Both the position numbers and the translations under genes were made by a program. The notes below the pieces were generated by a model. It did no database searches. It was not told the origin of the DNA and saw only the letters and a program-made list of their open reading frames with translations. DNA of 64,000 nucleotides, from NCBI RefSeq assembly GCF_001468225.1, contig NZ_LNRU01000006.1, forward strand, positions 310,001 through 374,000, in the 5' to 3' direction. This document shows, piece by piece, positions 11,421 to 42,883 of the stretch. Source of the stretch: Sphingopyxis sp. H053. Lineage in GTDB: Bacteria; Pseudomonadota; Alphaproteobacteria; Sphingomonadales; Sphingomonadaceae. Position 1 is the first letter of the stretch. Each line of letters opens with the position of its first letter.

Positions 11421-11498
11421 CGTCGCCCCCGCGAAGGCGGGGGCCGCCGGCAACCTTGCTCAAGGTCGATGGCGGCCCCCGCCTTCGCGGGGGCGACG
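11421..11498. repeat. Inverted palindromic repeat pair (REP-like), type C
   Basis: Arms CGTCGCCCCCGCGAAGGCGG... and its reverse complement enclose a short spacer between tpiA and secG. Each arm contains the self-complementary CCCCCGCGAAGGCGGGGG. The G/C-richer stem distinguishes it from the CATTCCC types. Confidence 0.9.
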
Positions 11499-13809: not shown

Positions 13810-14493
13810 ATGGATCACGCGAGACTCGCCGAGTTGCAGGGCCCCGACAGCATCTTTTCCGGGCTCTCGGTCGAAGATTGGGCCGAAATCGCCAGCCGCG
13901 CGGTGCAGGTCAATTTCGTCAAGGGCAAGGAATTGCTCGTCCAGGGCGACCCGGGCGACATGATGCTGATCCTGACCGAAGGCACCGCGCGTGTGTCGAT
14001 GCTGACCTCGGGCGGGCGCGAAATCGTGCTCGCCTATGCCGAACCCGGCGCGATATTGGGCGAGATCGCGCTGCTCGACGGCGGCGAGCGCACCGCATCG
14101 GTGACCGCGACGAGCGCCGGGAGCGCGCTCCAGCTTGGCCGCAATGCGCTCAAGGATTTCGCCGCGAGCCATCCCGAATTCGCCTGGTCGCTGATGCAGC
14201 AGCTCGCACGGCGGTTGCGCACCGCCGATCAGACGATCGAAAGCGACCGGGCTTACGCGTCGGGACCGCGGCTTGCGCGTTACCTCAAGCGCCTGATTCG
14301 CAAGGATGTCGAGGCATCGCAGCGTGTCGAACTCAGCCAGACCGAACTCGGCAATTTTGCCGGGATGAGCCGCGAGCATATCAACCGCCAGCTCAAGAGC
14401 TGGGAGGAATCGGGTGTGATTTCGCTCGAGCAGGGGCGCGTGCGCGTGCTCGATGCCGATATGCTGGAGGATATCAGCGAGAGCGAGGGGTAA
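13810..14493 (+). CDS. Crp/Fnr-family transcriptional regulator
   Basis: 227 residues. Residues about 15-135 form a cyclic-nucleotide-binding-type beta barrel (GDPGDMMLILTEG, PGAILGEIALLDGGERTASVTA). The last 75 residues hold the Crp winged helix-turn-helix (SQTELGNFAGMSREHINRQLKSW). The GEIALLDGGERTAS segment is close to the cAMP phosphate-binding cassette of CRP, so cyclic nucleotide binding is plausible. No Fnr-type cysteine cluster is present, so oxygen sensing through an iron-sulfur cluster is unlikely. Its targets cannot be read from the sequence; it may be cotranscribed with pyrG. Confidence 0.9.
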   Translation: MDHARLAELQGPDSIFSGLSVEDWAEIASRAVQVNFVKGKELLVQGDPGDMMLILTEGTARVSMLTSGGREIVLAYAEPGAILGEIALLDGGERTASVTATSAGSALQLGRNALKDFAASHPEFAWSLMQQLARRLRTADQTIESDRAYASGPRLARYLKRLIRKDVEASQRVELSQTELGNFAGMSREHINRQLKSWEESGVISLEQGRVRVLDADMLEDISESEG

Positions 14494-14501
14494 CAAACGC
14501 T

Positions 14502-14573
14502 CGTCATTCCCGCGAAAGCGGGAACCTAGCGAGCCAGCGTCACAACTGGGTTCCCGCTTTCGCGGGAATGACG
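14502..14573. repeat. Inverted palindromic repeat pair (REP-like), type B
   Basis: Arms CGTCATTCCCGCGAAAGCGG... face each other over a spacer, eight bases after the Crp/Fnr stop. Type B differs from type A by GAAAGC in place of GAAGGC. The same type recurs at 48356-48425 and 63461-63532. Confidence 0.9.
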
Positions 14574-14611
14574 AATGTTGGAGCTCGTTATGATCGGCCC
14601 GGAATCACAAC

Positions 14612-16894: not shown

Positions 16895-16976
16895 CCGTTC
16901 GCATCGAGCGAAGTCGAGATGCCCATCGATCAAGCGCCAAGCTGAGGGGTGTCTCGACTTCGCTCGACACGAACGG
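16895..16976. repeat. Inverted repeat pair of a second family (TCGACTTCGCTCGA core)
   Basis: Arms start CCGTTCGCATCGAGCGAAGT at 16895 and, read on the minus strand, CCGTTCGTGTCGAGCGAAGT from 16976. They are about 30 bases long, inverted, with the hairpin-forming core TCGAGCGAAGTCGA. This core is unrelated to the CCCGCGAAGGCGGG family used elsewhere in the window. The pair separates lolD from the glutathione peroxidase. Confidence 0.85.
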
Positions 16977-21562: not shown

Positions 21563-23170
21563 ATGTCCGGAATGCAGAGCCAGCCGCTGCTGGTCACCAG
21601 CCTGATCGACCATGCCGCGCGCGAACATGCGAACCGCGAGATCGTGTCGCGCTGGGCCGATGGCAGCGTGACACGCACGACGTGGGGCGAGGTCGGGACG
21701 GATGCGCGCCGTTTCGCCGCGGCGATGACGCGGTTGGGGATGAACAAGGGCGACCGCATCGCGACGCTCGCGATGAACCATGGCCATCATCTCGTCAGCT
21801 GGTACGGCAGCGCGGGGATGGGCGGGGTGCTTCATACAGTGAACCCCCGGCTGTTCGACGAGCAGCTCGTCTATATCGTCAACGATGCCGATGACCGTGT
21901 GTTGCTGTTCGACGCGATGTTCCTGCCGATCGTCGAGCGGCTGCGCCCGCAGTTGCCAACAGTCGAGCATTTCATCCTGTTCGATGCACCGGCGCGCGAA
22001 GGCTATCTCTCGTACCGCGACCTGATCGACGCCGAGGACGGCAGCTTCGAATGGGTGCAGCTCGACGAGCGCGATCCGGTCGGTCTTTGCTATACGAGCG
22101 GGACGACGGGCAATCCCAAGGGCGTGCTCTACGAGCATCGCTCGAACGTCATCCATGCGATCACCGAGATCCAGCCCGACGTATTCGGCCTGTCGAATCG
22201 CAGCGTGATTCTGCCGATCGTGCCGATGTTCCACGCCAACAGCTGGGGCGTGCCCTTTGCCGCCGCGACGGTCGGCGCCAAGCTGGTGTTCTCGGCGACC
22301 AATGATGCGCAGGTGCTGTGCGACCTGATGCACGACGAGGGGGTCACCCACAGCGCCGGTGTACCGACGGTGTGGATCGCGATGTTCGCGCATATGGATG
22401 CGACCGGCATCGGTTACGGCAAGCTCGAACGCGTGATCATCGGCGGATCGGCGGCGCCGCGCGCGATGATCGAACGCTTCATGCGGGCGGGAATCGCGGT
22501 CGGTCATGCGTGGGGGATGACCGAAACCAGCCCGATCGGGACGATGGGCAAGCGGCCGTGGAACTGGGACGAGCTGAGCTTTGACGAACAGGTCGACATC
22601 GTGTGCCGCCAGGGCTGCCCGCCGTTCGGGGTCGAGCTGCGCATCGTCGACGACGAGGACAAGGACTTGCCGCGCGACGGAGTGACCAGCGGGCGGCTAC
22701 AGTGCCGCGGACCGTGGATCATCCAGCGTTATTTCAAGGCCGATGTTGACGCCGCCGATGGCGACGGCTGGTTCGACACCGGCGATGTCGCGGTGCTGCA
22801 CCCCGACGGCGTCATGCAGATCACCGACCGCGCCAAGGATGTGATCAAGTCGGGCGGCGAGTGGATCAGCTCGATCGAACTCGAAAATGCTGCGGTCGGT
22901 GCGCCCGGGGTGCAGGAGGCGGCAGCGGTCGGCGTCTATCACCCGAAATGGGACGAGCGGCCGATCCTGTTGATCGTCAAAAAGCCGGGGTCCGAGGTGA
23001 GCGAGGCGGCGATCGTCGATTATCTGAAGGACAAGGTCGCCAAATGGTGGCTGCCCGACGAGATCGTCTTTGTCGACGAACTGCCGCACACGGCGACGGG
23101 CAAGATTTTGAAACGCCAGATCCGCGACGATTATAAGGATTACAAGCTGAAGTCGCTGGTGGGGGCATGA
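21563..23170 (+). CDS. Fatty-acyl-CoA ligase (AMP-binding, AlkK/medium-to-long-chain type)
   Basis: 535 residues of the ANL superfamily. The phosphate loop [11 protein letters not shown] is at about 176-186, followed by [11 protein letters not shown], the A5-type WGMTETSP, the GWFDTGDVA motif and the C-terminal KSGGEWIS, with catalytic Lys in TATGKILKR. It activates a carboxylic acid to acyl-CoA through an acyl-adenylate. The central [13 protein letters not shown] block is typical of the medium/long-chain AlkK-like group; chain length cannot be read. GAGAGG lies 10-15 bases before ATG 21563. No beta-oxidation genes adjoin. Confidence 0.93.
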
Positions 23171-23192
23171 TCCAGCGCGCGACGTAAAAGGC

Positions 23193-23570
23193 GTCGCCCC
23201 TTGCGAAGGCAGGGGCCGCTGTCGGCATCGCTCAGCCGTTGATGTGTTCAAAAAGGTCGGCCCATTCGGGATTGGCCTCCGAGATCAGCCGAAGCTTCCA
23301 TCCGCGTTTCCACTTCTTCAGGGCTTTTTCGCGGACGATAGCTTCGTCGATCCGACCGAATGGCTCGGCATAGACCAAGCGCGTCAGATCCCATTTCTTG
23401 CAAAAATCCGAGCCGGTCCCTGATCGATGCATAAAGATGCGGGCAGGGAGATCGGCTGTTACGCCGATATAGAGGATGCCCATCGGCTTATTGGTCATGA
23501 TGTAGACATAGGCGCGTCCCATCAAAATCAGCTCCATGACCACAGCGGCCCCTGCCTTCGCAGGGGCGAC
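23193..23570. repeat. Inverted repeat pair enclosing a GIY-YIG gene
   Basis: The left arm (23193-23220, GTCGCCCCTTGCGAAGGCAG...) and right arm (23544-23570) are inverted copies that differ by one extra T in the left arm. They belong to the same CCCC..GCGAAGGC..GGGG family as the other pairs, but instead of a short spacer they enclose 323 bases holding exactly one gene, a GIY-YIG nuclease. The arms begin 12 bases beyond the stop and 22 bases before the start of that gene. Confidence 0.85.
23232..23522 (-). CDS. GIY-YIG family endonuclease-like protein (single domain)
   Basis: 96 residues, essentially one GIY-YIG domain. YVYIM (4-8) and LYIGVT (about 15-20) form the two-strand signature (variant of GIY..YIG). 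They are followed by LPARIFMHR with the expected Arg, and a C-terminal REKALKKWKRGWKLRLI helix with conserved Glu/Lys. Such single-domain proteins (YhbQ/UPF0213-like) are small predicted nucleases with no attached DNA-binding domain. ATG 23522 was chosen because GGAG lies nine bases upstream; ATG 23537 would add MELIL. It is flanked on both sides by inverted palindromic repeats and is opposite in direction to the acyl-CoA ligase, so it looks like an independent insertion. Confidence 0.88.
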   Translation of the reverse strand: MGRAYVYIMTNKPMGILYIGVTADLPARIFMHRSGTGSDFCKKWDLTRLVYAEPFGRIDEAIVREKALKKWKRGWKLRLISEANPEWADLFEHING

Positions 23571-23581
23571 GATTGTTTCTG

Positions 23582-24670
23582 CTAGAACAGCTCCATCTGC
23601 CCGTCGCGCTCGGGTGGCCTGAACAGGTCGCTGCGGATCGGGGGGAAGCTCCGGTCCATGCCATGTTCGCGGGCGGCGCGTTTGACGCGGGTGCGGATGA
23701 GCTGGGCCCAGACGCCGTGGCCCCGCATCCGCGTGAAGAAATCGGGATCATTGTCGCGGCCGCCGCGGATGTCCTGCACCATATGCATCACCTTGTCGGC
23801 GCGGTCGGGATAGTGCGCCGCGAGCCAGGCGCGGAACAAGGGCGCCACCTCGAAGGGCAGGCGCATCAATATATAGGACACACGGATCGCGCCTGCTTCG
23901 GCGGCGGCCTTCATAATGGCCTCAATCTCGTGGTCGGTGATCGCGGGGATGATCGGCGAGATATTGACCTGCGTCGGCACGCCCGCATCGATCAGCTTGC
24001 GGATCGCGGCAAGGCGGCGGCGCGGGTGCGGTGCGCGGGGTTCGAGCGTGCGCGCGATGGCAGGGTCGAGCGTCGTCACCGACACCGCGACCCCAATCAG
24101 ATTGTCGCGCGCCATGTCGGCGAGCAAGTCGATATCGCGCAGGACGCGGTCGGACTTGGTGGTGATGATCAGCGGGTGGCGCGTTTCGGCAAGAACTTCG
24201 ACGATCGAACGGGTGATGCCCCAGTCGCGCTCGATCGGCTGGTAGCCGTCGGTGTTGGTGCCGATCGCCAGCGGCGCCGGCGTATACCCACGCTTTGCCA
24301 GTTCGGCGCGCAGCAGCTTTGCGGCGTCGGGTTTGGCGAAGAGTTTGCTTTCGAAATCGAGCCCCGGTGACAGGTCGTGAAACGCATGAGTCGGGCGCGC
24401 GAAGCAATAGATGCAGCCATGTTCGCAGCCGCGATAGGGATTGATCGAGCGGTCGAAGCTGATGTCGGGTGACTTGTTACGCGAAATGATCGTTTTCGGG
24501 TGCTCGACCGTGACCGTCGTGCGCAGCGGCGGGGCGTCGCCGTCGATCTCCTCCGCTGCGTCGAGCCAGTCGCCGTCGAGAACGCGCTCGGCCGATCCGG
24601 TGCGCGTCGGCCGCAAATTGGTCGGCGCGCCGCGGCCCGCGATCGGGGGGAGGGGTTTGGGCGATTCCAT
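23582..24670 (-). CDS. PA0069/Rv2578c-family radical SAM protein
   Basis: 362 residues. The cluster motif is Cys82-x3-Cys86-x2-Cys89 (GCEHGCIYCFARP), the canonical CxxxCxxC of radical SAM enzymes, preceded by SFDRSINPYRG. It is distantly related to spore photoproduct lyase (SplB-like), but this subgroup has no proven reaction. It begins at ATG 24670 and ends 11 bases inside the region right of the GIY-YIG repeat pair. Upstream is another palindromic repeat pair. Neighbours give no hint of the substrate. Confidence 0.9.
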   Translation of the reverse strand: MESPKPLPPIAGRGAPTNLRPTRTGSAERVLDGDWLDAAEEIDGDAPPLRTTVTVEHPKTIISRNKSPDISFDRSINPYRGCEHGCIYCFARPTHAFHDLSPGLDFESKLFAKPDAAKLLRAELAKRGYTPAPLAIGTNTDGYQPIERDWGITRSIVEVLAETRHPLIITTKSDRVLRDIDLLADMARDNLIGVAVSVTTLDPAIARTLEPRAPHPRRRLAAIRKLIDAGVPTQVNISPIIPAITDHEIEAIMKAAAEAGAIRVSYILMRLPFEVAPLFRAWLAAHYPDRADKVMHMVQDIRGGRDNDPDFFTRMRGHGVWAQLIRTRVKRAAREHGMDRSFPPIRSDLFRPPERDGQMELF

Positions 24671-24715
24671 CGGGCCAAACTACGCGCCCGGTGAGAACAA
24701 ATAAAGAACATTCTC

Positions 24716-24792
24716 ATCGCCCCCGCGAAGGCCGGGGCCGCTATCGGCCTTGCGCTGCGTCACCAGCGGCCCCCGCCTTCGCGGGGGCGACG
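24716..24792. repeat. Inverted palindromic repeat pair (REP-like), type C
   Basis: Arms ATCGCCCCCGCGAAGGCCGG... and the inverse of CGTCGCCCCCGCGAAGGCGG... face each other between the moaB stop and the radical SAM start. The left arm has one extra C (GGCCGGGG), a small mismatch that weakens one internal hairpin. Confidence 0.88.
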
Positions 24793-42803: not shown

Positions 42804-42883
42804 CCGTCATCCCGGCGAAGGCCGGGATCTCAACATCGCGTAATGTCGCATCGTCGAGACCCCGGCCTTCGCCGGGGTGACGG
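42804..42883. repeat. Inverted palindromic repeat pair (REP-like), type D
   Basis: Arms CCGTCATCCCGGCGAAGGCC... and the inverse of CCGTCACCCCGGCGAAGGCC... Each has the hairpin CCCGGCGAAGGCCGGG; here the outer stem is CCCGGC rather than CCCGC. It lies between the divergent ODC-type and flavoprotein genes and covers a GTG that would extend the latter. Confidence 0.88.

Follow-up and report, generated by a model that had tools for sequence, protein, structure and literature searches.

The 64,000-nt stretch of the Sphingopyxis sp. H053 genome analysed in this study (contig NZ_LNRU01000006.1, positions 310,001 to 374,000; hereafter the window) contains a 380-bp unit comprised of a small, stand-alone GIY-YIG nuclease gene placed between two inverted repetitive extragenic palindromic sequences (REPs) (Table 1). 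The two arms of the unit are near-perfect inverted copies, with one extra T in the left stem (CCCCTTGCG), and the REP is built of a CGTC tag, an 8-bp stem and a 4-nt loop, according to the predicted fold of its single-stranded DNA (ssDNA). An earlier inspection of the nucleotide sequence alone (the sequence-only reading) had described a 96-codon GIY-YIG gene within a near-perfect inverted pair of REP-like repeats at 23193-23570. A re-reading of the gene and its arms confirmed this arrangement and its place; the exact ends were corrected, as the CGTC...GACG tags that delimit the unit lie 1 nt further out on each side (23192 and 23571).

The REP core (CCCCTGCGAAGGCAGGGG, up to 3 mismatches) is present in seven copies in the window, compared with 0.11 expected from shuffling. 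The same reading had stated that elsewhere in the window the repeat occurs only as closely spaced pairs. Two such closed pairs were indeed found (core starts at 11426/11476 and 24720/24770), together with a lone copy that does not fit this statement. In the whole genome, the core (up to 2 mismatches) was detected 212 times, versus 11 times for a reversed control. The REPs of this genome are located between genes and are predicted to fold well. Among the exact core matches listed, we counted by eye 39 plus/minus pairs, of which 38 are closed, with a start-to-start spacing of 49-82 nt, and one is open, with a spacing of 378 nt. The latter, the sole opened pair among these matches, also encloses a GIY-YIG gene (locus L002).

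Table 1. Positions of the nuclease unit and of further REP features in the window
Feature	Position	Strand	Remarks
Whole unit (inverted REP - GIY-YIG gene - REP)	23192..23571	.	380 bp
Left REP	23192..23219	+	Outer CGTC tag, stem-loop, CCGC tail; 3' side of gene; ssDNA fold of 23191-23221
Right REP, inverted	23545..23571	-	5' side of gene; ssDNA fold predicted
Stand-alone GIY-YIG nuclease gene	23232..23522	-	96 codons plus stop (96 aa); Pfam GIY-YIG match
Closed REP dimer, window subfamily	11421..11498	.	78 nt; predicted to form one long hairpin; site empty in a relative
Closed REP dimer, window subfamily	24715..24792	.	78 nt; site empty in a relative
Lone REP core copy	42860..42877	-	Core search of the window
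Closed dimer of another repeat kind, outer CCGTTCG tag	16895..16976 (approximate ends)	.	
Insertion containing a REP dimer of a different CGTC type (CATTCCCGCGAAAGCGGGAA)	14487..14598 (approximate ends)	.	Absent in a relative

The association between small GIY-YIG genes and inverted repeats was quantified with a bracketing score, i.e. the best ungapped inverted match within approximately 200 nt on each side of the gene (+1/-2, threshold ≥14). Intervals of equal length taken from other parts of these loci served as an offset control. The genome of strain H053 contains nine GIY-YIG matches, namely UvrC and eight small genes. All eight small genes are bracketed by inverted palindromes representing several sequence types; no bracketing repeats were found at the UvrC gene. 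Bracketing was also observed at 25 of 27 loci of relatives, 47 of 81 loci of the class, 20 of 26 loci from a search of the phylum (11/17 outside the Alphaproteobacteria and 9/9 within it) and 61 of 80 named loci, which span Proteobacteria, Nitrospira, Planctomycetes, Deltaproteobacteria, Omnitrophus and others. The offset controls of these five sets passed at rates of 0-0.9% (own genome 0/56, relatives 0/211, class 2/216, phylum 1/194, named loci 3/568). When left and right sides were swapped between loci, 9.5% (own genome), 13.8% (relatives), 5.2% (class) and 2.5% (genome G210) passed. Two of the eight paralogues in G210, a genome with no offset-control intervals, were bracketed, and arms were present at five of the six plasmid loci read. 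When the own, relatives, class, G210 and phylum sets are combined, the (C/T)GTCAT start typical of CGTC REPs is present in 68 of 102 bracketing pairs. The outer ends of the arms are mostly CGTC, TGTC or GTG. In some genomes and plasmids (L182-L189 of G210, L391 and L393), the nuclease copies are embedded in REP arrays, with tags pointing inward or outward, which go beyond a simple pair.

The set of relatives comprised 27 loci, drawn from 57 places found outside the own genome, which gave 28 loci; of these, a broken fragment (L055, met again as L347) was left out. L040 and L056 are copies belonging to the own genome. One locus (L069) is counted twice, among the 27 relatives and among the eight copies of the second subfamily described below. 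For the class, one best locus was used for each of 81 of the 112 other matching genomes, the remaining 31 representing weaker matches. The phylum, named and subfamily-split sets consist of the best-scoring loci rather than of a random draw, and two of the loci (L295 and L228) look like a single locus taken from two collections.

The sequence-only reading had conceded that the link would be accidental if homologous genes showed no association with repeats beyond chance. With the frequencies found in the relatives, the class, the phylum, the named loci and the second subfamily described below, against at most 0.9% in the controls, the idea clearly survived. Chance or general bracketing was rejected on the basis of the offset, swap and shuffle controls, as well as by the UPF0213-like genes considered next. 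The pairing of gene and repeat is no accident.

Weak matches obtained in the search of relatives define a second subfamily of small GIY-YIG proteins (alignment A3). The repeats that bracket its copies in the genus (all eight of those examined) are of another kind, having a CCGTTCG-like outer tag and stems of the TTCGACAAGCTCAG or TCGAGCGAAGTCGAG type; the dimer at 16895..16976 of the window belongs to a repeat kind that brackets this subfamily at other loci. In 30 further loci, divided according to hidden Markov model (HMM) score with a chosen cut (A3 above 75 bits and 5 above A1; one locus, L369, lies just below it with 73 bits), the second subfamily passed at 18 of 21 loci (offset control 0/230), with arms of the TTCGACAAGCTCAG, TCGAGCGAAGTCGAG or CCTCATCCTGAGG type and others, and the only representative of the first subfamily passed as well (1/1). 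None of the eight UPF0213-like GIY-YIG genes of similar size among these 30 loci was bracketed (0/8). The label UPF0213-like goes back to resemblance and to the PDB match of a single member; seven members were compared with NCBIfam, and none received a name. One member of the group (L376) holds a stop codon. The repeats therefore accompany particular nuclease subfamilies and not any GIY-YIG gene. In several copies of the second subfamily (loci L069, L340-L346 and L348-L368 as a whole), the repeat is translated as part of the C-terminus of the protein, which results in tails such as PSTSSGRTDEL.

The window protein matches the Pfam GIY-YIG family (E 3.9e-11) and contains no other Pfam domain (no DDE, HUH or Y1/PF01797). 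Six residues (Tyr7, Tyr18, Gly20, Arg28, His32 and Glu65) are invariant in 31 aligned sequences, and they presumably include the catalytic residues of the fold, which we take to be Tyr, Tyr, Arg and Glu. The AF2 model of the protein is confident, with a predicted local distance difference test (pLDDT) score of 93.8. The nearest solved folds to its family are UPF0213 (1zg2) and Slx1, and 1zg2 is also the nearest to the second subfamily. Searches of NCBIfam and PHROGs yielded no family beyond weak matches, those in NCBIfam being far below the cut-off. Public records often give such proteins no name beyond "GIY-YIG nuclease family protein" or "hypothetical protein"; the gene at one locus (L388, AP027312.1) is annotated "excinuclease ABC subunit C", which is misleading, given that the nuclease is small and stand-alone. 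Five intact copies from the window site form 10 pairs, and in 9 of these the ratio of nonsynonymous to synonymous divergence (dN/dS) is 0.05-0.14, with dS near or past saturation; judged by these ratios, the nuclease is under purifying selection. Its synonymous divergence exceeds that of both neighbouring genes in all 10 pairs; as codon bias can cause such an excess, it is simply noted here. At least 4 of 13 window-type copies (in G005, G081, G064 and G044) are broken or partial.

A relationship between nuclease type and repeat type was visible at two levels. Across the class, the similarity of the arms rises with the similarity of the proteins (Mantel rho 0.17, 0/500 permutations; 82 armed loci, same-site pairs removed). 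This cognate signal is real but weak, and it is therefore not taken as the main support. Within 80 genomes of the genus, we compared the abundance of the window-type repeat (REP1, paired with nuclease 1) and of the repeat of the L006-type nuclease (REP2), in tests that ignore kinship. The median number of REP1 copies was 71 in the 13 genomes with nuclease 1 versus 14 in the 67 without it (p 3.8e-5), and 62 versus 16 when only the nine intact nuclease copies were considered (p 9e-4). For REP2, the median was 10 where the L006-type nuclease is present (13 genomes), compared with 1 where it is absent (67 genomes; p 1.8e-5). The cross tests, each of one nuclease against the REP of the other type, gave p values of 0.075 and 0.70.

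The closed dimers also bear traces of the nuclease element. Thirteen unique closed dimers were gathered near the repeat matches of this genome, of which 11 carry a CGTCG-type tag, mostly with the CCGC tail of the window element, and two a GTG tag with a CCCATC tail, as in the L002 element. The 16 positions immediately inside the REPs of the 11 dimers match the two inner ends of the nuclease element at 11.4/16 and 10.0/16, versus 6.4 and 6.5 after shuffling (0/2000 each), a significance that is overstated, as these dimers are mutually related. The matching inner ends include the region of the stop codon of the nuclease gene. Because these inner ends are retained in them, the closed dimers are most simply interpreted as internally deleted, non-autonomous elements.

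Comparison of pairs of sites suggested that the block from REP to REP behaves in some cases as a discrete unit. At two sites of this genome (L004 and L005) the shared homology stops within 9 nt of the REP arms, and in a pair from two genomes (L065 and L066) it stops within 10 nt of the arms of L065, the arms called for L066 being a different REP pair. For a third pair (L051 and L061) homology extends 22 and 12 nt beyond the arms. Plasmids of Sinorhizobium and Shinella have the REP-to-REP block in common at unrelated sites, with homology ending within 5 nt of the Sinorhizobium arms; a Rhizobium plasmid shares the same block only from the left REP to the end of the gene.

The window site was read in the best 30 of the 80 genomes, own included. 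It holds the unit in 6 genomes, a precise empty site, in which the stop codons of the two convergent neighbouring genes overlap, in 13, single remnants in 4 and REP dimers of unrelated types in 7. On a tree built from the flanks, the states show a very patchy distribution, which may reflect repeated loss, allele exchange or repeated insertion. The site (23170-23582; relatives L070-L099) looks like an insertion hot spot, because the same point holds either the nuclease unit or several unrelated types of REP dimers. In 20-kb stretches from 14 relatives and the window, filled and empty pairs fall, by our own grouping, into five intergenic sites, four of which are occupied in several genomes, often by differing repeat types.

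A possible trace of the loss of a unit was seen on Sphingobium plasmids. The filled plasmid TomMM15 predicts the hybrid REP that would be left by a loss between the REP stems; exactly this hybrid is carried by TomTYG64, and a variant of it by TomTYG74. The hybrid REP looks like an excision scar. Single REPs with CGTC at both ends, which look like scars left by the loss of a unit, were seen at L082, L398 and L395. At one chromosomal site, the L006-type unit occurs in both orientations, 3 of the 13 genomes having it inverted (L199, L201 and L202 in comparison with L190), perhaps by recombination between its REPs.

Taken together, these data make it probable that nuclease and repeats form a two-part system, with the unit as its master copy, in which the GIY-YIG nuclease makes the REPs spread. 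The nuclease would recognize the hairpin of its own REP, probably met as single-stranded DNA at replication forks, and would nick the DNA next to this hairpin, the outer CGTC tag being the probable place. Such a nick could let the inverted REP pair be excised and copied elsewhere, so that the enzyme itself would drive REP dispersal, and the closed dimers would be non-autonomous derivatives of the nuclease-bearing master copy. The logic would resemble that of the RAYT/REPIN system (RAYT, REP-associated tyrosine transposase), with a GIY-YIG nuclease in place of the HUH transposase. The proposal of the sequence-only reading that this small nuclease recognizes or spreads the repeats gains support from (i) bracketing beyond chance, (ii) specificity within the superfamily, (iii) matching of types and (iv) some units that are shared or lost as blocks from REP to REP.

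Several observations weigh against this interpretation. Bracketing scores were below the threshold at 34 of 81 class loci, 6 of 8 paralogues of G210, 6 of 17 non-alphaproteobacterial loci of the phylum set and 19 of 80 named loci, and one plasmid locus (L392) has no arms. The cognate signal is weak beyond close relatives, the abundance tests take no account of phylogeny, and REP1 is abundant in several genomes that lack nuclease 1 (159 copies in G031, 132 in G036 and 124 in G053). No target-site duplication was recognized by eye in the filled/empty pairs compared. Two of the four unit-free Sphingobium plasmids (TomTYG72 and TomTYG65) do not carry the hybrid REP, the prediction of which was written after the scar had been seen; moreover, the hybrid may have arisen by slippage between short stem repeats, for which no enzyme is needed. 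Finally, the two nuclease types followed in the genus are confined to one site each (13/13 genomes each), and the nuclease-bearing form is thus rarely seen to jump. The nuclease at the window site looks like a long-resident master copy, which is often lost, rather than a freshly jumping element.

A retained function in the host would suit this fixed site, and likewise the purifying selection. The nuclease would then be a site-specific single-strand enzyme of DNA uptake or genome maintenance, with the REPs as its recognition sites and the bracketing as a matter of local control or history. In line with this, a homologue in Neisseria gonorrhoeae (L330), with 65% identity to the A2 query, is surrounded by 11 copies of the motif ATTCCC-N8-GGGAAT, and the Neisseria member of the Ssn family (see below) is said to affect natural transformation. 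On the other hand, the nuclease is present in a patchy manner, some of its copies are broken, empty sites are numerous and discrete units occur at unrelated sites, all of which looks like a selfish unit, and we regard host function as an unlikely primary explanation, albeit one that is compatible with a nuclease that spreads its REPs.

Less likely still is homing, in which the nuclease would cut closed dimers at their centre and its gene would be copied in by means of the REP arms, the REPs themselves being spread in some other way. GIY-YIG is a classical homing nuclease fold, the gene lies exactly within an opened pair and weak matches to homing endonucleases were found in PHROGs. However, the closed dimers are similar to the inner ends of the element, its stop-codon region included, as would be expected if they were derived from it. 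In addition, each of the two nuclease types followed occupies one site in the genus, whereas REPs of the matching type occur all over the genome, which indicates that the nuclease does not enter the many available dimers.

It is very improbable that RAYT (HUH/Y1) transposases are the movers of these REPs and that the GIY-YIG gene is a passenger. RAYTs have been proposed as REP movers in other bacteria, in the portions of the reports available to us (PMC2817692, PMC3116915, PMC8266576), but no PF01797 match was found in this genome (26 contigs), and only 2 of 13 members of the genus searched have one; RAYT was therefore disfavoured as the mover. Within the available part of its text, a survey of 2013 reports that REPs of the CGTC type were not seen on the flanks of any tyrosine transposase gene (PMC3733652). 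A passenger gene, moreover, would not track the repeat type. Ordinary terminators or hairpins bracketing any small intergenic gene, a view with which the intergenic position and good folding of the REPs agree, are just as hard to credit, given that nearby same-size intervals passed in only 6/1245 (own, relatives, class, phylum and named sets) and 0/230 cases (subfamily set), that the UPF0213-like genes, the one other small gene group compared, passed in none of eight, and that the only opened pair among the exact matches listed encloses a GIY-YIG gene.

Among known elements and proteins, those of the YhbQ/UPF0213 group are similar to the window protein in fold and size, with 1zg2 as the nearest solved structure, but differ in that none of the examined genes is bracketed. 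The closed dimers resemble miniature inverted-repeat transposable elements (MITEs) and other derivatives of insertion sequences (ISs) in that they look like internally deleted copies keeping the ends of an element (with the overstated significance noted for these related dimers). The present system is unlike them in that the nuclease has no DDE or HUH domain; as to a target-site duplication, none was recognized by eye in the filled/empty pairs compared.

The likeness to the RAYT/REPIN system (REPtron) is closer. Its hallmarks, as far as given in the accessible text, are flanking inverted REPs, coevolution of REP and gene, fast evolution of the gene and REP abundance that tracks the gene (PMC2817692), and REP doublets are treated as the unit in the accessible part of a further report (PMC3116915). 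The system described here shares (i) a nuclease gene flanked by two inverted REPs, (ii) a repeat type that goes with the nuclease type and a gene that diverges faster than its neighbours, (iii) REP abundance that tracks the cognate gene (80 genomes, two types, kinship ignored) and (iv) paired REPs as the unit. It differs in that the window protein is a GIY-YIG nuclease with no HUH/Y1 domain (PF01797), and that the outer tag is CGTC-like (CCGTTCG in the genus copies of the second subfamily), in contrast to the GTAG of RAYT REPs.

The CGTC REPs are defined, in the available part of the survey by Di Nocera et al. 2013 (PMC3733652), by an outer CGTC or TGTC tag, an 8-9 bp stem and a 4-5 nt loop; they occur mostly as head-to-head dimers, chiefly in alphaproteobacteria, with AT "almost invariably" at the first two stem positions and a CCA tail in "most". 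The same part of the survey leaves their mover open. The window REP agrees with this definition in its CGTC tag, 8-bp stem, 4-nt loop and dimers. A point that again counts against our interpretation is that its stem base is GC instead of AT and its tail CCGC instead of CCA; as tag and dimer form are kept, we consider it a variant CGTC REP. Unlike in the CGTC REPs as described, a nuclease gene was found here between the REPs, and this nuclease is a candidate for the mover of CGTC REPs. Our literature search, which covered open-licence texts only and is no proof of absence, found no GIY-YIG genes linked to REPs among the texts listed.

The window protein probably belongs, as we assume, to the Ssn family. 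These site-specific single-strand GIY-YIG nucleases were reportedly described, first in Neisseria, in a 2025 Nature Communications paper of the Veyrier group; they are said to be small proteins with thousands of homologues, each with its own repeated sequence. The N. gonorrhoeae homologue, which we take to be the published Ssn, is of the same family as the window protein and lies amid its ATTCCC-N8-GGGAAT repeats, a motif that is presumably dRS3. In the available part of the 2013 survey, dRS3 is classed as a CGTC-1 REP (PMC3733652).

It seems possible, and we propose it tentatively, that bacterial REP populations are created and maintained by a second class of enzymes, the GIY-YIG nucleases, which evolved independently, with one subfamily for CGTC REPs in many phyla and another for TTCGACAAGCTCAG-type repeats, and that several bacterial repeats, among the most widespread of those that lack an explanation, are non-autonomous derivatives of nuclease units of approximately 380 bp. 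We know of no explanation for the TTCGACAAGCTCAG-type repeats. This proposal would supply predicted substrates for many poorly named small GIY-YIG proteins, and, with a dedicated nuclease for each repeat type, a single protein and a single oligonucleotide are enough for a direct test of the question of the mover. If the proposal is true, two unrelated nuclease folds, that of the RAYTs and GIY-YIG, have been recruited to the same way of life.
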